Positions 25,441 through 38,620 of a DNA stretch of 64,000 nt are shown one piece after another (position 1 is the first letter of the stretch; each line of letters opens with the position of its first letter). The notes under the pieces are model-generated. The model ran no database searches. It was not told the DNA's origin and worked only from the letters and a program-made list of their open reading frames with translations. A program made the position numbers and the translations under genes. Source of the stretch: Lachnospiraceae bacterium (GTDB lineage: Bacteria; Bacillota; Clostridia; Lachnospirales; Lachnospiraceae); NCBI GenBank assembly GCA_024403455.1, contig JAKSRR010000009.1:40970-104969 (forward strand), in the 5' to 3' direction.

Positions 25441-26172
25441 CTACAATGGCTTATCCTTAGGTGTCCCAGCTTTTCTAGGATACTTCTTCGGTGTCTCCTT
25501 CACTTTGGAAACTACTAACAGACTTCTTCCATAATCAGACGCCGGCAGCGTAAAGTCGACAATCGTCTTCTTCTTTCCACCAAGCACATTGAATGCATTG
25601 CCAGCAGTGGCCATTTCATTCAATAAATCCTCTGATTTGTATGCTATGAAATATCCCCCCACCTTTACATAAGGAAGCGTATATTCCAATAACACCGATA
25701 AATTTGCCACGGCTCTGGATACAACAAAATCAAACTTCTCTCTGAATTTATCTGGAGTGGCATACTCTTCGGCACGGCCATGGTAAGCTTCTATTCCAGT
25801 CAGGCCAAGTTCCTGGATTACTTCTTTTAGGAAATTAATTCTTTTGTTAAGCGAATCAATCATCGTCACCTGTAAATTAGGAAATACAATCTTTAGAGGA
25901 ATAGCAGGGAATCCCGCCCCAGTTCCAACATCTAAAAGGCTGGCCTCTTTCCCATCCACTAGCGCCTCACGAATCTCTTGAACCTCCACTGCCTTAATTA
26001 ACGAAACAGAATCCGCAAAATGTTTTACCAAAACATCCTCATACTCTGTAATGGAGGTCAAGTTCATTTTTTCATTCCAGGAAACCAATAATTCGTAGTA
26101 TTTCTGGAACTGCTCCACCTGCGCATCTGATAAGGTAATATCTAATTGTTTAAATAATTCACGAATTTCCAA
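25441..26172 (-). CDS. rsmG: 16S rRNA (guanine-527 N7)-methyltransferase
   Basis: 243 residues. RsmG methylates G527 of 16S rRNA with SAM. The N-terminal YYELLVSWNEKMNLTSI (about 25-41), the SAM-binding LLDVGTGAGFPAIPLKI (about 78-94), MIDSLNKRINFL and FVVSRAVANLSVLLEY (about 150-165) are characteristic. It lies after mnmG in the common gidA-gidB order, with the two 57-bp elements in the gaps on both sides. Confidence 0.97.
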   Translation of the reverse strand: MEIRELFKQLDITLSDAQVEQFQKYYELLVSWNEKMNLTSITEYEDVLVKHFADSVSLIKAVEVQEIREALVDGKEASLLDVGTGAGFPAIPLKIVFPNLQVTMIDSLNKRINFLKEVIQELGLTGIEAYHGRAEEYATPDKFREKFDFVVSRAVANLSVLLEYTLPYVKVGGYFIAYKSEDLLNEMATAGNAFNVLGGKKKTIVDFTLPASDYGRSLLVVSKVKETPKKYPRKAGTPKDKPL

Positions 26173-26221
26173 TATTATTCTCCGTACTTATAATTAGTTG
26201 GTTCAATCTCTTGTCAACCGC

Positions 26222-26278
26222 CCAAAGGGACACTCCTCTACCCAAAGTGACACTCCTCTGCTCAAAAGGACCGTCCCC
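26222..26278 (-). repeat. 57-bp repeat element, right copy
   Basis: On the minus strand three 20-bp units follow each other: GGGGACGGTCCTTTTGAGCA, GAGGAGTGTCACTTTGGGTA and GAGGAGTGTCCCTTTGG. It is the inverted counterpart of 25345-25401 and lies just after the mnmG stop, between mnmG and rsmG. Confidence 0.85.
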
Positions 26279-26280
26279 AA

Positions 26281-28215
26281 TTACTTACGCAGTTTTGCAT
26301 CCAGATATACTAAAAGAACACTGACATCGGCTGGGGTTACACCCGAGATACGGGAAGCCTGACCAATATTATCCGGGCGAAATTCTTTCAATTTCTGCCG
26401 TGCTTCTAAACGAAGACTGGAGACTTCATCGTAATCAAGATCTACTGGAATCCGGCGAGTTTCCATCTTTTTAAACTGTTTTACTTGCTGTTCCTGCCTT
26501 TTGATATATCCATCATACTTGATTGCAATATTAATCTGGTTTGCCACGTCCGCCGAGACGGAAGGCCTCTCTGGATCAATCGGTGCAATATTTTCATAGG
26601 ACAATTCCGGACGGCATATTAATTCCGATAAAAACGTACTCTTCTTCACCGTAGCTGAACCCATGGATTCTAAAAATGCCTGCGTTTCTTTTCCTGCACC
26701 AACAGAGGTTTCCTGCAATCGGGCAACCTCTTCATTTATTAATTTTTCCTTTGCCAGTAATGCTTCATAAACTTCATCGGAAACAAGCCCCACACGATGA
26801 CCATGCTTACGAAGTCTTAGATCTGCATTATCCTGACGAAGTAATAGTCTGTATTCTGCGCGGGATGTCATCATACGATATGGTTCCCTATTTTCCTTGG
26901 TTACCAAATCATCAATGAGGACACCAATATAACTTTCCGAACGATCTAGAATTAATGGTTCTTTCCCAAGAATTTCCATAGCAGCATTAATTCCAGCAAT
27001 GAGTCCCTGGGCTGCTGCCTCTTCATAGCCAGAAGATCCATTGAACTGCCCAGCACAGAACAGTCCCTTCGTACGCCTTGTTTCCAAAGATAAGAGAAGC
27101 TGTCCATGCGTCAGACAATCATACTCAATGGCATAAGCATTTTTTACAATTTCACAGTGTTCCATACCAGGAACGGTACGATACATTGCAAGCTGCACAT
27201 CTTCCGGAAGCGAAGAACTCATTCCGCCAACATACATCTCATTAGTATATAATCCCTCTGGCTCTAAAAATACCTGATGACGTTCCTTCTCTGCAAACTT
27301 AACCACCTTATCTTCAATGGAAGGACAATATCTAGGACCGGTACCTTCTATAATGCCAGCATAAATCGGAGAACGATCCAAATTCGCTCGAATGATTTCA
27401 TGTGTCTTTTCATTCGTGTATGTCAGATAACAGCATACCTGTTCCTTCTGTATACTATCCGGGTCTGTGGAGAAGGAAAATGGTGTAATCACCTCATCTC
27501 CATACTGTGGCTCCATCTTGTCATAATCCAGACTATTTCCATCCATACGTGCCGGTGTTCCCGTCTTAAAGCGACGAAGTCCTATTCCCATCGCTTTTAT
27601 ACTATCTGACAAATAGGTTGCTGCTTTTAGTCCATTGGGGCCGGTATAGCTAATTGCCTCTCCACAAAGGCATCTTGCATTCAAATAGGTGCCGGAGCAA
27701 ATAATCGCTGCCTTACAAAAATAGGTTGCCCCGGTAAAAATACGAACACCTGTAATTTGATAAGCACGCTCTGGATGCGCATCTTCATATGCCTCATATA
27801 AAAGTTCACAGACTTCTGCCTGTTTAATTCTGAGATTCTTTTGGGCCTCTAGACGTTTCCGCATTTCCCCCGTATAAACCTGCTTATCAGCCTGTGCTCT
27901 CAGGGAATGTACTGCAGGGCCTTTCGATACATTTAGCATTTTCGATTGGATAAATGCTGCATCAATCACTTTTCCCATCTCGCCGCCCAGAGCATCTAGT
28001 TCTCGCACCAAATGTCCTTTTGATGAGCCTCCAATATTTGGATTACAAGGCATGAGTGCAATGGATTCTGCGGATACGGTAAATAGCACCGTAGACAACC
28101 CTAAACGTGCACAGGCAAGGGCTGCCTCACAACCGGCGTGTCCCGCACCAATGACACATACATCCACATATTCTTTTATGGTGTTCTTATTGGTAAGAGG
28201 TAATTTCTCCATCAT
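26281..28215 (-). CDS. mnmG: tRNA uridine-34 carboxymethylaminomethyl synthesis enzyme MnmG
   Basis: About 644 residues. With MnmE it installs the cmnm5 group at U34 of several tRNAs. FAD-binding VIGAGHAGCEAALACARLG (about 20-38) and the family signatures PCNPNIGGSSKGHLVRE (about 56-72) and GPRYCPSIEDK (about 275) are intact, and the C-terminal MnmE-binding part with RISGVTPADVSVLL is complete. AGGATATACG stands before the ATG at 28215; the longer frame begins with a GTG lacking an SD. Normal length. Confidence 0.96.
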   Translation of the reverse strand: MMEKLPLTNKNTIKEYVDVCVIGAGHAGCEAALACARLGLSTVLFTVSAESIALMPCNPNIGGSSKGHLVRELDALGGEMGKVIDAAFIQSKMLNVSKGPAVHSLRAQADKQVYTGEMRKRLEAQKNLRIKQAEVCELLYEAYEDAHPERAYQITGVRIFTGATYFCKAAIICSGTYLNARCLCGEAISYTGPNGLKAATYLSDSIKAMGIGLRRFKTGTPARMDGNSLDYDKMEPQYGDEVITPFSFSTDPDSIQKEQVCCYLTYTNEKTHEIIRANLDRSPIYAGIIEGTGPRYCPSIEDKVVKFAEKERHQVFLEPEGLYTNEMYVGGMSSSLPEDVQLAMYRTVPGMEHCEIVKNAYAIEYDCLTHGQLLLSLETRRTKGLFCAGQFNGSSGYEEAAAQGLIAGINAAMEILGKEPLILDRSESYIGVLIDDLVTKENREPYRMMTSRAEYRLLLRQDNADLRLRKHGHRVGLVSDEVYEALLAKEKLINEEVARLQETSVGAGKETQAFLESMGSATVKKSTFLSELICRPELSYENIAPIDPERPSVSADVANQINIAIKYDGYIKRQEQQVKQFKKMETRRIPVDLDYDEVSSLRLEARQKLKEFRPDNIGQASRISGVTPADVSVLLVYLDAKLRK

Positions 28216-28288
28216 CGTATATCCTAGAGTAGTTTTCACTACATATTTTCTGATTTACATAATATGTCACAACACTTCTATTATAACA

Positions 28289-28318
28289 CAAGAAGGCAGA
28301 GGTTTTCCCCTGCCTTCC
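28289..28318. terminator. Possible terminator between the radical SAM gene and mnmG
   Basis: GAAGGCAG and CTGCCTTC pair around a purine/pyrimidine-rich centre that can extend the stem. The tail is only moderately T-rich on the minus strand (TTGTGTTATAA). Confidence 0.5.
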
Positions 28319-28322
28319 TTTT

Positions 28323-29051
28323 CTAGCACCCTTCTTCCAAGGTATAATTTTCTTCGTCTTCCACAGGCGTTTCCTGCTGCTCTGTCTTCTCAACTAATCC
28401 CGCAGATGTTAAATCCCCCACATGCATGTAATCCCGAAGAATATAGGAAAATACTTCAACATCCGAAAATCCCATAGTCTTTATGATTTCCGCTTCCTGG
28501 TTCGCTTGTTCTTCTGTCTTATAGCCAGGTATAATCGGAATACGAATCCTACATTTGTTCTGCAGACCTTTTTCACATATCCGCTGCAGGTTCTTCTTCA
28601 TCACCACGGACGATAGTCCCGTGTACTGCTCATAAATAGCATCATCTAGGCTCTTAACATCTATGAGGAAATAGTCCACCTTCTCCAACACCTCATCTAA
28701 AACAGGACTCTCATAATTCATAGAGGTCTCCATGTACACCTTCATCCCCATGGGGCGTATTTTCAAAAATTCTAAAATTGCTTCTCCATGTAGCAGAGAC
28801 TCACCGCCGCCAAACATAAGTCCCCCGCCTGTAGTAAGGAAGTAACAGTAGTCAATCATCACCTTGTCTAACAATTCCTGCGCAGACATAGGGCGATATT
28901 TCTGTTTTCCAAGAATATCCATATTGATACAATACTTGCATTTTAACGGACACCCGGCTAGTCCAATAAGCGTGGTAACGCCTTCCCCATCAGTAAGCAA
29001 ACGATGTCGGTTGATGACTTGTACTTTAAATAGCTGCTGGTTAGTCTGCAT
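28323..29051 (-). CDS. Radical SAM protein, glycyl-radical-activase-like
   Basis: About 242 residues. The sequence INRHRLLTDGEGVTTLIG leads into GCPLKCKYCIN, whose Cys at about 34, 38 and 41 form the CxxxCxxC cluster motif; MFGGGESLLHG (about 79-89) is the GGE motif that binds SAM. This pattern is that of pyruvate formate-lyase-activating type enzymes, without the extra ferredoxin-like insert. No glycyl radical enzyme is nearby. The gene starts inside the end of the Cys-rich gene (11-base overlap, ATG at 29051; a TTG at 29066 is the alternative), so the pair is translationally coupled and its real target may be that neighbour. Confidence 0.82.
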   Translation of the reverse strand: MQTNQQLFKVQVINRHRLLTDGEGVTTLIGLAGCPLKCKYCINMDILGKQKYRPMSAQELLDKVMIDYCYFLTTGGGLMFGGGESLLHGEAILEFLKIRPMGMKVYMETSMNYESPVLDEVLEKVDYFLIDVKSLDDAIYEQYTGLSSVVMKKNLQRICEKGLQNKCRIRIPIIPGYKTEEQANQEAEIIKTMGFSDVEVFSYILRDYMHVGDLTSAGLVEKTEQQETPVEDEENYTLEEGC

Positions 29052-29745
29052 AAATGTAATAATCAATCTCTTCTTCGCTCAAATTGGTCACAGTCTTATT
29101 TGCAAGATCAACATAAATCCAATCCCACGTTGCTGTGTGGCTTTCGCCATCTTCCTCTTCTACGACTTCATAGCAGTGAATCATGTAATTGCCATTTTCC
29201 TCCACACTGTCAATTTCCACAATCGGAGCATTGGAATAATTCTTTGCAATAGTAAGTCCGACATTATGGTCTGAAAGATCTACTTCATCTACACATACCA
29301 CGTCCCCATCCAGCTCGTACTCAATCTCTCCACCCTCGGAGCTTGGATCGTATGCCACATCACCATCTAGCTCATACTCTAAACCGCCATCATAATCGTC
29401 ATTAGGATCCACTTCTTCCGGAGGTGCTGATTCCATACCATCTACTTCATTGATAGGCGGTTCTGTAGCGCCCCCTAACGCCTCAACGTCTCTACCACCT
29501 TTCGGGTCTACAACACCAGAGGGTACCTTCTCCATTCCGCAGGCAGTCAGCATCACCGTTGTTGCAGCGACAGCGCTAGCAAGCAATGCTTTGTTTAATA
29601 TTTTCTCTTCCTGTGCACACTTAGGACAGGTACCACTACACTCTCCTTCGTAGGTACATTCTCTCTGGTGTAAATCTACACCAATCTCATCTGCAACTGT
29701 CTTACGAATCGCTTTCAGTCTTCTGCATTGTTCTTTATGTGTCAT
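29041..29745 (-). CDS. Cys-rich protein with internal lipobox
   Basis: 234 residues, family not recognised. The first 48 residues hold Cys at 7, 30, 36, 40 and 43, with the block CTYEGECSGTCPKC, a likely metal or cluster site. A hydrophobic segment (about 50-68) ends in MLTAC, a typical lipobox at Cys 69, although a signal with a 50-residue N-region is odd. The rest is very acidic and contains a near-duplicate, LEYELDGDVAYD and IEYELDGDVVCVD (about 118-152), followed by a folded-looking domain. It overlaps the radical SAM gene. Either the protein is a membrane-tethered Cys-rich sensor or the two halves are processed apart; neither is shown. Confidence 0.8.
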   Translation of the reverse strand: MTHKEQCRRLKAIRKTVADEIGVDLHQRECTYEGECSGTCPKCAQEEKILNKALLASAVAATTVMLTACGMEKVPSGVVDPKGGRDVEALGGATEPPINEVDGMESAPPEEVDPNDDYDGGLEYELDGDVAYDPSSEGGEIEYELDGDVVCVDEVDLSDHNVGLTIAKNYSNAPIVEIDSVEENGNYMIHCYEVVEEEDGESHTATWDWIYVDLANKTVTNLSEEEIDYYIYAD

Positions 29746-29878
29746 ACTAATTTCCCTTTTCCTTTCTCTTTCTACACAATTTCACTTGGGGGATGCCCCC
29801 TTCTATAAATGATACGAACTACTTTTACTAATTTATGGATTTTTTTGTAATTCTTATACTTTATTATACAATGAAAGA

Positions 29879-32482
29879 CTACTGCACTTTATACTTCTCA
29901 TAAAATACTTTCTTTGTAGTTTCCAAATCCAGCTTAAATTCTCTAGAAGAGGTTACTAAAGCATCTGCCCCGCGCACAATAATCTGTTCTAGTCCATCAC
30001 TAGTTACCACTCGAATCCGGAGTTTTCCCGCATTCAGTCGGGTAAATCGTTCGATAAATTGGTCCGCTGTCTGTGCCGTCTTAGTAAACACCACCTTTAC
30101 GCCGCCTTCTTCAGCTACTTCCTCCGCATGATTCTGTAACCTATAGGCGTCGAAAACCACCATCACCTGCATCCCCTTAATGGCCTGATACTCGGATAAA
30201 TCCTCTACTAGTTTTCTTCGTAGTCCATCTAGGGCATCTCCTGAAATTCCTGCTAAATTTCCCCAGGCATGCAGTACATTATATCCATCTACCAGAAGAT
30301 ATTCTGGCAAGGGCGCTTGATAGGACTTTACGGTCGAAGTTCCTGCTGTCACCTTCACATCCTTAGTGGTATGATGATTCTTCCCTTTATGAGGGATAAA
30401 ATTCTCATGACTATTCGCATAAAATGTACTCTGCATAATTTCTGAAATTTCTTCCTGCGACACAAAATCACTAACTTCTTGGACAGTATTTTGCTTCACA
30501 CGATTTCGAATCTGTTCCTCTGTCAGTTCCTTGGTTGGATGAAGCACAGAAGGCATATGCATCCTTGTGTGCACTTCATTCCATGGTACAATCTCACCGC
30601 TGCCATGAGCACAAAAGACAGAATCGGGCGTATTCCTTGTATCTTTCAGCGGATCGTATGCCCTCGCTGCCAAAACCTCATCCTCATTATGGCAAGGTCC
30701 ATATCCAAATACCGAAAGTGACAGCATCCCCCTTCCTGATGTGTATGCCGTCACATCCGCACCATAACCTGCCAGGGTTGATACTGGTGCTGTTCCCACT
30801 AAAACAGCCTTATCACCTTCCACCTCCGGCGCAAAATCTCTAGCATACAACCGTTCCAAATCCGTCATTGCTCTTCCTACACATTCTGTGGGGAGTTCCA
30901 AACGAAATGCATAATAAGGTTCTAGGAGCCTACTCTTTGCCTGCATAAGGCCTTGCCGGATGGCTCGATACGTAGCCTGCCTAAAATCCCCGCCTTCCGT
31001 GTGCTTGGGATGAGCGCGACCACTGACCACAGTTATCTTCATATCGGTAATCGCCGAACCCGTAAGAACCCCTCTGTGCGTACGTTCCTTAAGGTGCGTC
31101 ATAATCAGTCTTTGCCAGTTTTTGTCCAATATCTCTTCCCGACAATCCGTCTCAAAGATTAGACCTTCGCCAGGCAGCGTCGGTTCTAGCAACAGATGTA
31201 CTTCTGCATAATGTCTAAGTGGTTCAAAATGTCCCACACCTTCAACAACATCTTCTATAGTTTCTTTATAAATAATCTTTTTCTCGCCAAATGAAACATG
31301 ATAACCAAAACGTTCTAAAATAGATTTCTGAATAATTTCCGTCTGCACCATCCCCATAAGGCTGATTTGAATAGATCGGCTATCTTCTTCATAAGACAAG
31401 GACAAGTCCGGCTGCTCTTCTGCCAGTTTCTGCAACTTAGGAAGCGCTACATTTACCTCCACGCCATCCTCTAAAATCAATTCATAAGAAATCACCGGTG
31501 AAAGCAGTGGTCTTCTCTCTCCTTCTTCACTGCCAATCCCCTGCCCTGGATAGCTGGCGGTCAGCCCCGTAACTGCCACAACCTGTCCACACTTAGCTTC
31601 TGAAATCTGTTCAAACTTCACCCCATCATAGAGACGAATAGTATTTATTTTTTCTTTTTCCAAAGAGTCCTTAACTTTTAATACGCCGCTAGTAATCCGT
31701 AGATGCGTCAGTCGTTCTCCCTTTTCATCAAAAGAAATCTTAAATACTCTGGCACCAAAATCTTCAGAAGCCGCATTCTGTTCTACCGCTTCTAACAACC
31801 ACGATAATGTCCCCATAAATTCAGAAACACCTTCATCTTTTAGCGCAGCACCGAAACATACAGGATGTATTTTTCTATCTGTAAATAACTTGGCAACCTG
31901 TGTATCAGTAATGAGTTCCCCATTAAGATAAGCTTCCATAAGCGTTTCCTCTGTGGTTGCCACAGACTCATAAAATGCATCATTCTTTTCTGTAAAGTCT
32001 ATGTAGTTCCCTGCCAATTCCTTTTGAATGTGTTTTAAAATATCCTCTTTAGTGGCATCTACCTGATCCATCTTATTAACAAATACTAGATAAGGAATCT
32101 CATAAGTATCCAATAGTTTCTTCAAGGTTCTGGTATGGCTCTGCACACCACTTGAAGCACTAATTACCAAGATTACGGCATCTAGAACGGACAGGGTACG
32201 CTCCATCTCTGCCGAAAAATCCACATGCCCAGGAGTATCTAATAACGTTGCCAGAATGGATACTTCATCCGTTTTTTCTCTATAAAAAGGCAGGAGCGCC
32301 TGTTTACTAAAAATAGTAATACCGCGCTCCTTTTCCATAGGATTTGTGTCTAAAAAAGCATTGCCCTTATCTACTCGGCCTAGGCTCTTTAGTTTCCCAG
32401 CATGATACATCATGCACTCTGATAAAGTTGTCTTTCCAGCATCCACATGTGCCAGAATTCCAAGTGTCACATACTTTGGCAT
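29879..32482 (-). CDS. TetM-type ribosome-protection GTPase fused to NYN nuclease domain
   Basis: 867 residues, against about 640 for TetM/TetO. The N-terminal GTPase is complete: AHVDAGKTT (G1, 11-19), ERGITIF (G2), DTPGHVDF (G3, about 84), NKMDQ (G4, about 138) and FGAALKDEG (G5). EF-G-like domains follow, with the domain IV region ITVVSGRAHPKHTEGGDFRQ. After a Ser/His/Lys-rich linker, residues 727-867 form a YacP/Rae1-like NYN domain with LVDGYNV (Asp 732), VVFDAYR (Asp 778), TADQF (Asp 807) and VTSDGLEQ (Asp 829), the acidic residues expected for RNA cleavage. Rae1 of B. subtilis cuts mRNA in the ribosomal A site. The fusion suggests a stalled-ribosome factor rather than a plain tetracycline-resistance protein; that is inference. 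Confidence 0.92.
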   Translation of the reverse strand: MPKYVTLGILAHVDAGKTTLSECMMYHAGKLKSLGRVDKGNAFLDTNPMEKERGITIFSKQALLPFYREKTDEVSILATLLDTPGHVDFSAEMERTLSVLDAVILVISASSGVQSHTRTLKKLLDTYEIPYLVFVNKMDQVDATKEDILKHIQKELAGNYIDFTEKNDAFYESVATTEETLMEAYLNGELITDTQVAKLFTDRKIHPVCFGAALKDEGVSEFMGTLSWLLEAVEQNAASEDFGARVFKISFDEKGERLTHLRITSGVLKVKDSLEKEKINTIRLYDGVKFEQISEAKCGQVVAVTGLTASYPGQGIGSEEGERRPLLSPVISYELILEDGVEVNVALPKLQKLAEEQPDLSLSYEEDSRSIQISLMGMVQTEIIQKSILERFGYHVSFGEKKIIYKETIEDVVEGVGHFEPLRHYAEVHLLLEPTLPGEGLIFETDCREEILDKNWQRLIMTHLKERTHRGVLTGSAITDMKITVVSGRAHPKHTEGGDFRQATYRAIRQGLMQAKSRLLEPYYAFRLELPTECVGRAMTDLERLYARDFAPEVEGDKAVLVGTAPVSTLAGYGADVTAYTSGRGMLSLSVFGYGPCHNEDEVLAARAYDPLKDTRNTPDSVFCAHGSGEIVPWNEVHTRMHMPSVLHPTKELTEEQIRNRVKQNTVQEVSDFVSQEEISEIMQSTFYANSHENFIPHKGKNHHTTKDVKVTAGTSTVKSYQAPLPEYLLVDGYNVLHAWGNLAGISGDALDGLRRKLVEDLSEYQAIKGMQVMVVFDAYRLQNHAEEVAEEGGVKVVFTKTAQTADQFIERFTRLNAGKLRIRVVTSDGLEQIIVRGADALVTSSREFKLDLETTKKVFYEKYKVQ

Positions 32483-32491
32483 GATTTCTAC

Positions 32492-33700
32492 TTAACCTAC
32501 ACTCATAGATGAATCATCTTCGCCAAAAATACAATCATCATCCATGGTAACCTTCATACCTTCAATACCTTCTTCTGTTTCGCTTCCCATAAATGTACAA
32601 CCATTAAATGTATAGGTTCCTGACTTAGAAAGCATTGCCTGTCCATAGTTATAGGCAAACAGACAATTATTAAATACCGCCGCAGACTTATTGAAATCTA
32701 ACAAGGTAAACTCCTGGCAATAACTCATGGTACAGTTATTAAAGATAGCATTCTTCACAGCAGTAAAGCACACAATACCATAACTACAGTCATGAATCCA
32801 TGAATCATTAACGGTAATACTATTGCACTTTTCTGCTTCTATACCATAGGTACCGCAGCCATAAAGATTCATATTGTTTAAGACTACATTGTTGGTCGAG
32901 ATAAGCCCTAATACTGCACCGGTACAATAGCCTGGTTCAACAGCATGTCCCATAACAATTCCAGACAACGTAATGTTTTTACATTTATTAAACTGCAGCA
33001 CGTCTGCATAGGCATCCTCAACTACAATCTGGGTAAGTCTAGCTGGACTCTCTGCATATATTGCAAAGTTATTTACACTGTTAATCTGAAGTCCTTCATC
33101 TGCATCATACTTTACTTTTTTATTGGCAATCTCTTCTGCATTTTCTACATATCTTGTAATATCATACACACCAGGTGCTAGTACAAGTAAAGTATCCGGC
33201 GCAATGGACTCCACCAAGAGTTCCGTGCTCGTTACGTATACGCAATTCTTATAGTCATCATAAGGGATTGCAGAAATCATCTCCTCCGCATCTGCTTCTA
33301 CCTCTGCGACCTCATCCTCAGCATCCTCTTCGTCTTCTGCTTCTTCCTCTTCGTCTCCGTCCTCTTCTTCCTCATCTACTTCGTCGGTATCGTCCTCTTC
33401 CGTTTCAGCATCCTCTTCGTCAGAATCACCTTCTTCGGTATCCTCTTCCTGTTCTTCTTCCAAATCTGTTTCTTCGGTTGCTTCCGGAGCAGTCTCCTTC
33501 TCCTCCTGCGTATCTTCTACAACTTCTGGTTCCTCTTCCTTATCTGTCGTACCAGTTACAACTTCCCCATCCAAATTACCAGAAACAGTTAGTCCAGAGT
33601 CTTTAATCTCTACGGTTCCCGATTCTCCAATATTAATCGTGCAGGCAGTCATTGATACCATAGTAAGCACGCCCAACATTATTGCTAACTTTTTCTTCAT
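32492..33700 (-). CDS. Acidic beta-helix lipoprotein
   Basis: 402 residues. Signal peptide with lipobox VSMTAC (Cys 20). Residues about 55-145 are a run of Asp/Glu broken by Thr, Ala and Val, an extreme low-complexity acidic tract. Residues about 150-390 look like a right-handed parallel beta-helix, with repeated short rungs such as ITLSGIVMG, NVVLNNMNLYG, SITVNDSWIHDC and AIFNNCTMSYC, and regularly placed Asn and Cys. Beta-helices of this kind often bind or cut polysaccharides; no catalytic triad is evident. It lies 10 bases ahead of the GTPase-NYN gene and may share its mRNA. Confidence 0.85.
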   Translation of the reverse strand: MKKKLAIMLGVLTMVSMTACTINIGESGTVEIKDSGLTVSGNLDGEVVTGTTDKEEEPEVVEDTQEEKETAPEATEETDLEEEQEEDTEEGDSDEEDAETEEDDTDEVDEEEEDGDEEEEAEDEEDAEDEVAEVEADAEEMISAIPYDDYKNCVYVTSTELLVESIAPDTLLVLAPGVYDITRYVENAEEIANKKVKYDADEGLQINSVNNFAIYAESPARLTQIVVEDAYADVLQFNKCKNITLSGIVMGHAVEPGYCTGAVLGLISTNNVVLNNMNLYGCGTYGIEAEKCNSITVNDSWIHDCSYGIVCFTAVKNAIFNNCTMSYCQEFTLLDFNKSAAVFNNCLFAYNYGQAMLSKSGTYTFNGCTFMGSETEEGIEGMKVTMDDDCIFGEDDSSMSVG

Positions 33701-33723
33701 ATCATCTCTCCTCAGAAATATTC

Positions 33724-34956
33724 TTACAGGAACATTGTTCCCAATTCTTTCTTAACATAGCCTTTTACAAAAATACCATCTTCTCGGTACTCTTCTACAA
33801 TATTACCACTTTCATGCATTCTTGAGATAATTGATGCATCAGAAAATGCAAATATCTTTTCTATATATACCATACCCTCATGCATAAATCTGGCAATAGC
33901 ATCCTCTAATTTTTCAATGCCTGTGCCCTCTTTTGCGCTGATTCGAACACTACGATCCGCCCTTGGATCCCATAAAATCAACTGATCCGTCAGCAAATCT
34001 GCTTTATTGAACACTGTAATCACAGGTTTCCCCTGAATTCCTAGTTCTGAAAGCGTTCTGTACACCGTGTCCATATGGGCATCCCTATCGGGGTCGGCCG
34101 CATCCACTACATGCAAAATCAAATCTGCATGTACAGCCTCTTCCAATGTACTTTTAAAAGCATCAATCAGATTGTGAGGAAGTTTCCGAATAAAACCTAC
34201 TGTATCCGTTAATAGCATCTTCTCCCCATCCCGCATCTTATACTCTCTCGTGGTGGGATCTAGGGTTGCAAAAAGCATATCTTCAGCTAATATTCCTGCA
34301 CCTGTTAGTGTATTTAGCAGTGTGGACTTTCCTGCATTTGTATATCCAACAATGGATACACAAAACTCCCCGTTCCGACTTCTGCGTGCTCTGGTTACAC
34401 CTCTGTGTTTCTCAACTTCCTTTAACTCTCTCTTGAGCTGGCTGATTCTTTCATGAATCCTTCGTCTATCTATCTCCAGTTTTTTCTCACCAGGTCCTCT
34501 GGTACCTATACCACCGCCTAGCCTAGAAAGCACTTTACCCATACCAATCAGGTGTGTTGCACGATACTGAAGCTGTGCTAATTCTACCTGAATACTACCT
34601 TCTGCACTTAATGCATGCGCTGCAAATATATCCAGAATCACCATGGTTCGGTCCATAACTTTACAGCCTAGCATCTCTTCGATTCGGCTCATTTGAGAGG
34701 CAGAAAGTTCATCATCAAAAACCACGCCATCAGCCTCCATAAGGGAGACCTGCTGGCTAATTTCTTCAATCTTACCGGTGCCCATATAGGTCTGGGGATG
34801 ACGATTCTCACGAATCTGTATCACTTTTAGTATCCCTTCACCGCCGGCAGTTTTTACCAGTTCGCCTAGTTCATCTAGGCTAATGCTAACTTCCTCTTCA
34901 TCGGTTCCAATCCCGGCCAATATAAACTTTTCTTTAATCTTTGCTGTTTCCTGCAT
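33724..34956 (-). CDS. hflX: Ribosome-associated GTPase HflX
   Basis: 410 residues. HflX splits stalled or stress-damaged ribosomes. The N-terminal HflX domain ends with LGGGIGTRGPGEKKLEIDRRRI (split around residue 150), then come the GTPase motifs GYTNAGKSTLLN (G1, about 206), TLDPTTRE (G2), LTDTVGFIRKLP (G3, about 248) and VFNKAD (G4, about 320). Complete and of normal length. It precedes the beta-helix and GTPase-NYN genes, a notable run of ribosome-rescue-type functions. Confidence 0.95.
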   Translation of the reverse strand: MQETAKIKEKFILAGIGTDEEEVSISLDELGELVKTAGGEGILKVIQIRENRHPQTYMGTGKIEEISQQVSLMEADGVVFDDELSASQMSRIEEMLGCKVMDRTMVILDIFAAHALSAEGSIQVELAQLQYRATHLIGMGKVLSRLGGGIGTRGPGEKKLEIDRRRIHERISQLKRELKEVEKHRGVTRARRSRNGEFCVSIVGYTNAGKSTLLNTLTGAGILAEDMLFATLDPTTREYKMRDGEKMLLTDTVGFIRKLPHNLIDAFKSTLEEAVHADLILHVVDAADPDRDAHMDTVYRTLSELGIQGKPVITVFNKADLLTDQLILWDPRADRSVRISAKEGTGIEKLEDAIARFMHEGMVYIEKIFAFSDASIISRMHESGNIVEEYREDGIFVKGYVKKELGTMFL

Positions 34957-35030
34957 TTATCCGCATTCTCTTAAAAGTCTTCAAGGCTTTTGCCCCTTGT
35001 ATCATAGTATCATAACATAATACAAAGAAG

Positions 35031-35053
35031 TGATTCTACTAGCAACGAATCAC
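35031..35053 (-). terminator. Possible terminator upstream of hflX
   Basis: GTGATTC and GAATCAC pair around a 10-base loop; on the minus strand TTCTTTGTATT follows. It lies between the nuclease stop and the hflX start. Confidence 0.5.
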
Positions 35054-35087
35054 CCCGTCTCGCTATAACTAACCTCTAGGTCCTCAC

Positions 35088-36320
35088 TTACGGGTTGCAA
35101 CGTTTACAAGGAACATACCCCTCGGCAATGACTTTTTCTCTATCCCAATCTACAGGAAGCTTATTGTGTTCTGCCATCTCGCCTACGGAAGAACAGTTCG
35201 GATAATGAAATTTCCCTGTATTGGTATTAATTACATAGGTGCAGGTAAGTACTGGCTGTGATGGCGTAGACTCAGAATCCGGTACATTGCTCGAATCAGA
35301 GTCTGGCATAGATGGCTGGTCAGGTAAACGCTCTGGCACAGGCAATACGTCTGAATCTTTTTCTGCCAAGAGAGCTTCCTGACTTCCATCGGAAGCATTG
35401 GTTCCATCAGCATAATTAATGATTACTCCCGGCTGCGCGTTATAACAAAAGACACAGAAGCAGACCCCTTCTCCTACATCTTCCACACTCATGGCTTCCA
35501 TCAAGACACCTGTTGCCAAAAGATTATTTCCTTCGAAAATAGGCGTAACCCTGTAAAGCACGTGATTATCGGTCTTTTGTACATACTTCGCTACTTGTTC
35601 CTCAAAAGGGAGCATCCCTCTAACATTCAGATACCTTGTACCCGTAATCAGATTCCGTGTATTATCATTCTCACCTGATAATTGATAACCAATCAGATGG
35701 CACCTATTATACAAATACTTTCCATCTACAAAATCATACTTTGCCGTCTGCCAACCGCTGGGCTTAATCATACCAATCTCGCCGCGTTCCTCTGTCGGCA
35801 TAATCTCCACACAGATATTGGCATAGGTAATGCCACAGCGACCTAACTCATCTAAAGATGCATAGAACTCAAAGGGCGAAGTCGTAAGCTCTTCCTCCGT
35901 AAAGAAAGGCTTATTCCCATGAACAATGACATAGGGAAAATCCACGAAGACTGGTATGTCCTTCAATGAAAAACTTTCCTCCTGCCCTATTATCTTTTCA
36001 CCGGCTTCCCCTTCAGAATCTGACTCCTCTAGGGCTGGTACTTCTAAAGAATACTCCGACTCTCCTATGAAATCTGTCTCCTGCGAAGGTTCCCTCCCCT
36101 GTTGGCAGTCACTCTCCAGAAAACCACTCTCCTGCTGAGACTCGTTTTCCTGCTGAGACTCGCTTTCCTGCAAAGCCGCCGCTTCCTGCTGTTCTATCTG
36201 TATCTCTTCCCTTTCCTTAGAAGTATCTGGATTGCATCCAGCCATCCATAGAAGCAGTAACCAAAATGATAGTACCGGCAGCAATGTATTCAGTTTTCGT
36301 TTCCATTTCACTTTTTTCAT
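35088..36320 (-). CDS. DNA/RNA non-specific endonuclease, lipoprotein
   Basis: About 410 residues. A basic start and a hydrophobic stretch end in the lipobox WMAGC. A Gln/Glu/Ser-rich linker of repeated SQQE-like units (about 35-100) follows. The nuclease domain holds YNRCHLIGYQLSGENDNTRN (about 200-219), whose His and the Asn-rich follow-up match the DRGH-type site of EndA/NucA-like enzymes, here with RCHL. The C-terminal 55 residues (FHYPNCSSVGEM, then GYVPCKRCNP) form a small Ada-like Cys-binding module. The ATG at 36320 directly precedes KKVKWKRK and is preferred over the one at 36344, which would place seven residues before the signal. Likely extracellular DNA degradation or uptake. Confidence 0.87.
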   Translation of the reverse strand: MKKVKWKRKLNTLLPVLSFWLLLLWMAGCNPDTSKEREEIQIEQQEAAALQESESQQENESQQESGFLESDCQQGREPSQETDFIGESEYSLEVPALEESDSEGEAGEKIIGQEESFSLKDIPVFVDFPYVIVHGNKPFFTEEELTTSPFEFYASLDELGRCGITYANICVEIMPTEERGEIGMIKPSGWQTAKYDFVDGKYLYNRCHLIGYQLSGENDNTRNLITGTRYLNVRGMLPFEEQVAKYVQKTDNHVLYRVTPIFEGNNLLATGVLMEAMSVEDVGEGVCFCVFCYNAQPGVIINYADGTNASDGSQEALLAEKDSDVLPVPERLPDQPSMPDSDSSNVPDSESTPSQPVLTCTYVINTNTGKFHYPNCSSVGEMAEHNKLPVDWDREKVIAEGYVPCKRCNP

Positions 36321-36370
36321 AGACCCATTATCGCATAGCGGCATCTATAAAAAGCACCATAAACGCCCCT

Positions 36371-38620
36371 CTATTTCTCGTGAAGTTCTTTAATCGCTTC
36401 TGCCAGTTTAGGATTCTTTTTCTTAAGTTCCCCATACAGTTTCTTATGAAGGCTGTCCATATGCGCATAGGCCTCTGGATGCTGGGCGCGCATGCGTTTA
36501 CGCAGTTCACGTCGATGTTCTCTAAGACGACCTAGTGCACTGCTTCCCATTGCCCGCAAGTGTTCCTCACTTTCCATTCGTCTGACTTCAATTTCCCTTT
36601 CCAAACTCACTAATTCTTCCGGCGTAATCTTTTTCGTAACACTCAGTTCTTCCAGTTTTATCTCCAGATAATCCCAGAACTCATTCTCATCAAAACGCCC
36701 CAGCATGCCCCAGATAGTGTGCAGCCTTGCCTGTCCAAAAATCTTATTCACAATCTCCGTATAAGATATATCCTGCACCACCTCTCCCAAGGTCTCTGTT
36801 TCATGCAATTCCTGCTCAATCAACCTCGCTTCCTCCGATGCCAAACGCTCCAACCACTTCTCTGCATCTACACCAAATGCCCATTCTACTTCAACCAATT
36901 TTTCCAGTTCCTCATCCGGTTCAGCCACAGCACCTACCTGGCCACTTTCTTCCAATTCATAGGGCTTTTCAAATCCGGCATCACGAAGTGCCAGCGTAAT
37001 GGTTCTTCTCACATGATTTTCTTCAATTAACGTAGCTCCACCTAGACTTCGAATGGCATCATTCAGGGAACCCTCGTGTTCTGTAATGTAAAACCGTATT
37101 CCCTGTTTCATATAATTTCTAGCCATCACAATCAGTCTGTCAATGGCTGTAATATCAATACTGCTAATTCCTCTGGCATCCACAACAATACATTTCGTAT
37201 CCTCTTTTACTGCCCTTGCAATGTCATTTTGGAAACGATCTATATTCGCAAAGAACAGATTTCCTCCAAACCGATAAATCACGACATTCTTGATTGGTCG
37301 AGCATTTGAATTTCTCCCTAGAGAATAGAAATTCCCCTGTCCTGGAATTCTTCCTACAAGAGCTGTTGGCGGCGCCGTAGCACGAATGGCTACTTCACAG
37401 AAGGACAGAATGGTTCCCACCACTACGCCTCCCACAGTACCTAAAAAAAGCACACCAAAGAATGAAATCATAAAGATCATAAATTCATTTTTTCTAATTT
37501 TCCAAAGACGACCAGCCATCTTCATTTCCAGAATACCAACAAGTGCAGCCATGACAATACCTGTTAATACCGGCACAGGAAGATAGCTTAGTAGCGGCGT
37601 TGCAAACAGCAAAATCAGAAGCATGGTAACAGCTGCAGCAACAGACATGAGCTGAGATCTGCATCCAAAGGAATCTGTAATTCCGCTACGGGATACAGAA
37701 CCATTCACTGGACAGCAACCCACAATACCAGATGCTGCATTCATGGCTGCGTAGGCAACCAACTCCCTATTATGATTTAGTTTATCTCCATACTTTATGG
37801 CATAATTTCCGGAAGCTAGCAGCGTCTGTGCCATAATTACAATAGCAATGCTAAAGGATTGGGTAAAAATAAGTTGCGGATGTTCGGCTATGATTGTCAT
37901 GTCGGGAAGAGCAAATTGCGGAAGCCCCTTTGCCACCTCCGGCAAAAGTTTCACTCCATAGGTATCAACCTTACACACAACCTGAATCAGCCCTCCCACA
38001 ACCAAAAGCACCGCTGTCATGGGAATCCTTGGGCACAACCGCCTGCAAATCAAAATCACGAGGGTGGTTCCTAAACCAAGCCAAAAAGAAAGCTGGTGAA
38101 AATGCCCTGCCTCCTCAACAATATTATCCACTAGTTGTATAACATTTCCCACCCCGGGATTTCCACCAAACAATTTCGGTAATTGCATTAGAATAATAGT
38201 GCAGCCAACCCCTGAAATAAAACCACCCATCACAGGCATGGAAATGTATTTCACAATACGACCAAATCTAAAAACAGCAAAGAGAATAAACCACAACGCA
38301 ACTACCATTGCTATCACCGGCACAAAAGAAAGCGCTTCCCTACTTTCTGCCACAATGCCTAATTCTGCAAGCATAGAACCAACCATAACTGCTGGCATAG
38401 CATCTACACCTACTACAAACTGTCTAGAGGAAGTAATCAATCCAAAGACAAATATGGGCAATATAGATCCATATAAACCAAAGACCGCTGGCAATCCTGC
38501 AATCTGTGCATATCCCATGGAAATTGGTATGGATACAAGCGCTATCACAACACCTGCAAATATATCTTTTCCAAAATGAATCTCTTTGCGATTTTTAGAC
38601 AGCATGGATAATAAATTCAT
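36371..38620 (-). CDS. SulP-family anion transporter with STAS domain and long tail
   Basis: 749 residues. The membrane part (about 15-420) starts DIFAGVVIALVSIPISMGYAQIAG split over helix 1 and includes GCCPVNGSVSRSG (about 300), the SulP hallmark region. A STAS domain follows (about 440-550, VVDARGISSIDITAIDRLI). Beyond it come about 190 further residues, charged and helical (EELVSLEREIEVRRMESEEHLR, then HRRELRKRMRAQHPEAY), which are not part of the normal SulP architecture. SulP proteins move sulfate, bicarbonate or carboxylates; the ion here is unknown. It begins 4 bases after the GH43 gene and precedes the nuclease by 50 bases. Confidence 0.9.
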   Translation of the reverse strand: MNLLSMLSKNRKEIHFGKDIFAGVVIALVSIPISMGYAQIAGLPAVFGLYGSILPIFVFGLITSSRQFVVGVDAMPAVMVGSMLAELGIVAESREALSFVPVIAMVVALWFILFAVFRFGRIVKYISMPVMGGFISGVGCTIILMQLPKLFGGNPGVGNVIQLVDNIVEEAGHFHQLSFWLGLGTTLVILICRRLCPRIPMTAVLLVVGGLIQVVCKVDTYGVKLLPEVAKGLPQFALPDMTIIAEHPQLIFTQSFSIAIVIMAQTLLASGNYAIKYGDKLNHNRELVAYAAMNAASGIVGCCPVNGSVSRSGITDSFGCRSQLMSVAAAVTMLLILLFATPLLSYLPVPVLTGIVMAALVGILEMKMAGRLWKIRKNEFMIFMISFFGVLFLGTVGGVVVGTILSFCEVAIRATAPPTALVGRIPGQGNFYSLGRNSNARPIKNVVIYRFGGNLFFANIDRFQNDIARAVKEDTKCIVVDARGISSIDITAIDRLIVMARNYMKQGIRFYITEHEGSLNDAIRSLGGATLIEENHVRRTITLALRDAGFEKPYELEESGQVGAVAEPDEELEKLVEVEWAFGVDAEKWLERLASEEARLIEQELHETETLGEVVQDISYTEIVNKIFGQARLHTIWGMLGRFDENEFWDYLEIKLEELSVTKKITPEELVSLEREIEVRRMESEEHLRAMGSSALGRLREHRRELRKRMRAQHPEAYAHMDSLHKKLYGELKKKNPKLAEAIKELHEK

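Follow-up and report, generated by a model that had tools for sequence, protein, structure and literature searches.

Atkinson 2015 (PMC4342817) reports, in its accessible part, that the Tet proteins of ten species of Clostridiales have gained an RNase domain of the YacP-like NYN type, and suggests that the RNase acts on rRNA or tRNA in drug resistance. The same portion of that paper describes the tip loops of Tet proteins as contacting and dislodging tetracycline. The NYN protein Rae1 (YacP) is described, in the available part of a second source (PMC12320835), as a cutter of mRNA in the ribosomal A site. The window analysed here, a stretch of 64,000 nucleotides of contig JAKSRR010000009.1 from a Lachnospiraceae bacterium, contains a gene that shares its architecture and bacterial group with the Tet-NYN fusions as presented in the accessible text of Atkinson 2015. 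By architecture and host group it very probably belongs to these fusions; the fusion architecture was already published in 2015, and the window gene is a newly found member. In a literature search covering mainly papers free of subscription, no other paper on the fusion or on the function of its protein was found, nor were the subfamily status, tip signature, single origin, replacement of Rae1 and eroded basic tail described below found in print. We propose, with a probability of roughly one half, that this chromosomal and non-essential gene of Clostridia encodes a ribosome factor whose EF-G/Tet-like GTPase is joined to a Rae1 nuclease of its own, which cuts mRNA on stalled ribosomes.

The gene occupies the minus strand (29879..32482) from an ATG at 32482 to a stop at 29879 and encodes a protein of 867 aa (P0001) consisting of a translational GTPase, a linker and a NYN_YacP (Rae1-type) nuclease. 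It has no internal stops, and stops occur throughout the plus strand across the same interval. The original prediction of one unbroken 867-residue chain, made with no strand given, is thereby confirmed as a single minus-strand ORF. Pfam identified a GTPase domain (GTP_EFTU, residues 4-226, 31805..32473, 162.3 bits), EF-G domain II (EF-G_D2, residues 242-308, 31559..31759, 29.8 bits), domain III (EFG_III, residues 349-399, 31286..31438, 23.2 bits, the sole domain under its cut-off, which is 27), domain IV (EFG_IV, residues 402-516, 30935..31279, 64.5 bits) and domain V (EFG_C, residues 518-600, 30683..30931, 50.8 bits), all on the minus strand. The Rae1-like NYN domain proposed for the C-terminus was recovered by the same domain search as NYN_YacP (PF05991, residues 729-865, 29888..30298, minus strand) with 134.8 bits versus a gathering cut-off of 24.6. 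An assembly join or frameshift between the two parts is ruled out, because the single-contig genomes G035, G046 and G085 have fused-length frames with both halves inside one ORF (loci L075, L077 and L098).

P0001 contains the P-loop, switch and DTPGH motifs of an active translational GTPase, and K17, T18, D82, H86, K137 and D139 are identical in all 78 fused proteins and all 20 unfused relatives. It shares domains I-V with Tet(M)/Tet(O), and TetM and TetO are its best matches among the sequences of solved structures (236 bits). EF-G, the fold of which is common to the P0001 model, scores lower than Tet in sequence and has a different tip loop. The best NCBIfam match is the Tet family tet_protect (NF012153), in agreement with the TetM-like GTPase originally predicted. 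Membership of the Tet(M) kind, however, is not supported, as P0001 scores 379.5 bits against a curated cut-off of 775 and its tip loops are replaced; its identity to the Tet rows is ~30%. The unfused members L107, L132 and L133 and the outlier L139 (457) score 406-468 bits with tet_protect, likewise all below 775, whereas a Tet(M) control (L140) passes the cut-off with 882.9 bits. Another Tet-like GTPase, L112:7831-9756, scores 453 bits and L139:5363-7369 the 457 bits already given, both below the cut-off.

A GTPase tree was built from 105 rows, with L002, L014 (split), L020 (contig end), L024 and L110 (truncated) left out. In this tree the subfamily is separated from EF-G and from the Tet(M) rows with an SH-aLRT of 94, and the 78 fused rows all fall, together with one split gene, into a single clade (SH-aLRT 99), so that one fusion event accounts for the fused rows. 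A thinned 51-row tree, additionally without L112 and 53 of the 78 fused rows, gave 99/94 for the subfamily split and 100/100 for the fused clade, with a bootstrap that had not fully settled. G229, G141 and G201 also gave GTPase matches, at 32-35% identity, which were left outside the classification. Judged by its tet_protect scores and tree position, the GTPase is therefore a separate subfamily, Tet-like yet not Tet(M). Atkinson 2015, in its accessible part, places the fusions within Tet, whereas the GTPase forms a clade of its own with a different tip here, and its NYN domain looks like the Rae1 of the lineage.

Within the GTPase, conservation is highest in domain IV, where 31 of 116 columns are conserved at 97% or more (58 rows). 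Aligned loop 1 of its tip (residues 415-427, 31202..31240, minus strand; GxGHFEPLRHYAE) follows the pattern GxGH[FY]EPxxHYAE in 72 of the 78 fused and 19 of the 20 unfused rows, and loop 3 (residues 488-500, 30983..31021, minus strand; ..KHTxGGDF) reads xHTxGGDF in 76/78 and 19/20, respectively. At the same tip sites the Tet(M) rows have YYSPVSTPADF, which corresponds to loop 3, and PPNPFWAS, and EF-G has yet another loop. The Tet(M)-type drug-site tip loop is absent from P0001, which has GRAHPKHTEGGDF versus GLYYSPVSTPADF in TetM, L140 and L141. Intermediate tips occur in two distant rows, L112 (HTHPLDF) and L139 (HTHGGDF). Since its loops differ from those with which Tet proteins dislodge tetracycline, the tip looks suited to a decoding-centre task other than that of Tet(M). 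An unfused relative with an HTVGGDF tip, labelled as a TetM/TetW/TetO/TetS resistance protein and with a loop 1 outside the pattern used, was found on plasmid pMP118 of Ligilactobacillus salivarius UCC118 (L185:3974-5908), where it adjoins an extra rpsN (S14) gene.

These features bear on the reading of Atkinson 2015, namely a protein that protects against antibiotics and has gained an RNase; its GTPase would clear the ribosome of tetracycline or of a different drug bound in the A site, and its nuclease would process rRNA or tRNA. We regard it as quite unlikely: the tet_protect scores all fall short of the cut-off that the Tet(M) control passes, the domain IV tip differs from that of Tet(M), and the gene is chromosomal, widespread and vertical-looking, unlike a sporadic resistance gene. 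On its side are tet_protect as the best NCBIfam match, TetM and TetO as the best solved-structure sequences, and the NCBI label TetM/TetW/TetO/TetS resistance protein on a relative from Agathobacter rectalis that has the same tip and is encoded by a 2802-base gene, a length that would accommodate the fusion. A Monoglobus relative is annotated as a translation factor GTPase family protein.

In a plain sequence search the NYN part was alignable over 132 residues with the B. subtilis Rae1/YacP structures 5mq8 and 5mq9 (E ~2e-20), with the catalytic acids kept in P0001. Asp732 (30287..30289), Asp778 (30149..30151), Asp807 (30062..30064) and Asp829 (29996..29998; all minus strand), the four acidic residues expected to be kept, are present at the named positions and, together with N735, are identical in 78/78 fused and 29/29 standalone NYN rows. 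The domain is Rae1-type as far as its sequence goes. In contrast to standalone Rae1 with its basic C-terminal tail, P0001 is fused and lacks both the checked basic residues and the tail, which is not known as a defining feature of Rae1/YacP; a basic tail of the same kind is found at the end of B. subtilis YacP. Among the 78 fused NYNs the tail is missing in 19, including P0001, and present in 59. Fused NYNs are also more acidic than standalone ones (median net charge -6 vs 0), and in the numbering of a standalone relative the equivalents of R120 (38/78 fused vs 29/29 standalone), K166 (10/78 vs 23/29) and R168 (29/78 vs 28/29) are less frequent, all three being present in 2/78 fused but 22/29 standalone rows. 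The Fisher tests on these residues disregard the kinship of the fused rows, the small p-values are not to be taken at face value, and the loss could be drift within one clade. Eroded basic residues and a missing tail would also be expected of a NYN whose GTPase partner had assumed the task of docking on the ribosome; if the basic residues aid binding of Rae1 to the ribosome, losing them would be in keeping with docking having passed to the GTPase. The NYN-only tree was poorly resolved and did not reject a single fused clade (p-AU 0.89).

The survey of related genomes recovered the same fusion widely. In a family sample of 100 genomes, 90 had a NYN_YacP match, which lay in a frame of at least 840 residues in 77 and not in the other 13; frame length served as the criterion for fusion in this sample, and both halves were in one ORF at all 45 fused loci inspected. 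Eight of the 13 genomes lacking a fused-length frame have a standalone NYN; G068 has a 249-aa NYN plus a distant Tet-like gene elsewhere, G095 is interrupted by contig ends, G042 shows a split into two ORFs, and the frames of G006 and G098 measure 735 and 516 aa. In a class sample of 147 genomes, selected at a completeness of at least 90%, 100 genomes had a NYN (51 fused, 46 standalone and 3 partial or split) and 47 had none, the 51 fused genomes being spread over 19 family labels. A phylum sample of 398 genomes contained 35 with a match at E <=1e-85, fused or unfused. At L114:5513-8198 and L014:4929-7589 two adjacent ORFs take the place of the single fused gene, and a split is also seen in the search rows for G143. 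MT835514.1 (L193:3001-5514) and MT835563.1, both unverified records of a faecal 'Bacteriophage sp.', match 98-99% of the fused protein at 49.5% and 46.8%, respectively, and are likely bacterial DNA within a phage collection.

Neither half was found in 10 of the 100 family genomes, one of which belongs to the same genus and is rated 100% complete, so the fused gene is dispensable. Because both halves are absent from these genomes, no basic maturation step depends on the fused gene, which tells against a factor for ribosome biogenesis or quality control that docks on subunits through its GTPase and trims or destroys rRNA, not mRNA, with its NYN. We consider such a role very unlikely, also because the NYN is nearest to Rae1, an enzyme described as cutting mRNA; in its favour, some EF-G kin work on subunits, and NYN proteins were formerly proposed in rRNA and tRNA maturation, as cited in the available part of Atkinson 2015 (PMC4342817).

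In the genome that contains the window (G000, 82% complete) the fused gene is the sole NYN_YacP gene, and a search for a second close relative of the GTPase in G000 returned only ordinary, more distant GTPases. No case of a fused gene alongside a complete standalone NYN in the same genome was found in the family and class samples. Second NYN matches in fused genomes were restricted to G039, in which the match is above the cut-off and is a piece at a contig end, and G076 and G219, in which it is below the cut-off. Since a complete second Rae1 was seen in none of the fused genomes, the fusion probably serves as the Rae1 of its lineage.

Unfused GTPases of the same subfamily were identified in 20 genomes, of which 13 (five family, one of them truncated, four class and four phylum genomes) encode a standalone NYN elsewhere and seven (four class and three phylum genomes) lack any NYN. 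The 13 of 20 are no evidence of coupling, since 100 of the 147 class genomes have a NYN anyway. Conversely, at the identity threshold used, the unfused GTPase was missing from 42 of the 46 class genomes that have a standalone NYN. Strict co-occurrence of GTPase and NYN, hinted at by the family sample, in which all ten NYN-less genomes also lacked the GTPase, was refuted by the class and phylum samples. The seven and the 42 genomes, counted against strict coupling, are compatible with two activities that are simply kept together, the GTPase working alone, the NYN acting as an ordinary Rae1 and the fusion merely setting their amounts, as is the long linker with its low model confidence. This explanation nonetheless appears unlikely to us, as a single fusion was retained over the 19 family labels of the class sample, the basic residues of Rae1 are eroded and the linker contains a conserved motif.

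The aligned linker (residues 650-726, 30305..30535, minus strand) is fast evolving and poorly conserved; counted from residue 650 to 728 of P0001, its length ranges from 61 to 149 residues across 58 rows. A short motif with the consensus E[LI]xxI[FL]xRT[YF] lies mid-linker (in P0001 E-I-S-E-I-M-Q-S-T-F, residues 678-687, 30422..30451, minus strand). A slightly looser pattern, derived from the same sequences as were scored, matches 55 of 76 linkers, with 0.09 expected on shuffling and two of the 78 linkers not parsed. No relatives of the motif were found in Pfam or among the sequences of solved structures. In the structure model a helix (residues 676-687) coincides with the motif inside a low-confidence stretch (residues 650-723, confidence <50). 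The full-length model of P0001 is middling (pLDDT 72.5, pTM 0.52), and the 50 PDB matches listed for it are all EF-G/EF-2 kin, none being TetM; NYN modelled alone reached a pLDDT of 82.5 and a pTM of 0.79.

The idea of the original prediction that the protein docks on stalled ribosomes and then cuts the message fits this anatomy. Points counted for it are the intact motifs, the single fusion clade, the presence of only one complete Rae1-type gene, the eroded basic residues and the linker motif; counted against it is that domain IV would obstruct the A site used by Rae1. Domain IV and Rae1 would need the same A-site space, so a simple joint docking is impossible and the two should act in turn. 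In the proposed sequence of events, the GTP-bound protein would enter the factor site of a ribosome whose A site is vacant or blocked, and there the domain IV tip might probe or clear the decoding centre. GTP hydrolysis would then be followed by withdrawal of the GTPase from the A site, and the NYN, kept close by its linker of 61-149 residues, could enter the vacated A site and cut the mRNA, which would let the ribosome be rescued. A handover of this kind from the GTPase to the tethered NYN would be the economical reading.

tmRNA would complete ribosome rescue. A tmRNA search of the 82% complete G000 assembly gave a best score of 20.3 bits versus a cut-off of 47. As noted at the outset of this work, hflX (33724-34956, minus strand; GTP-bdg_N, GTP-bdg_M and MMR_HSR1 domains) is located two genes upstream of the fused gene. 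Its suggested role as functional context found no support: of 76 loci, counting the window, just 3 have hflX no more than six genes away from the fused gene, some loci being too short for six genes per side. As a conserved partner it was rejected. No other prominent conserved neighbours were found at the 76 fused or 22 unfused loci. A minus-strand ORF encoding an acidic-repeat lipoprotein-like protein with a beta-helix domain (32492-33700) ends 9 bases before the start codon of the fused gene, and upstream of hflX a further minus-strand ORF (35088-36344) encodes a lipoprotein-like protein with a DNA/RNA non-specific endonuclease domain (PF13930). PADLOC gave zero matches, a defence system being rejected on that search, and no Rfam match to an RNA element was found within 26000-38000.

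A bolder version of the proposal, which we put forward tentatively and hold to be possible but doubtful, is that the fusion represents a distinct class of translational GTPase that reads the decoding centre by its own invariant tip and passes the emptied A site to a tethered nuclease, with no drug removal. Stall sensor, mRNA cutter and rescue trigger might then be united in one protein, which would serve entire families of gut Clostridia as their Rae1, at present often under a tetracycline resistance label. Gene catalogues are affected as well: such a label has been given to at least one of these proteins, though the rows tested fall below the NCBI Tet cut-off. If our main reading is true, many Clostridia, including common gut groups, would cut messages on stalled ribosomes via a GTP-driven machine, in contrast to standalone Rae1, which must locate the A site unaided, and the recruitment step of Rae1 would become directly testable.
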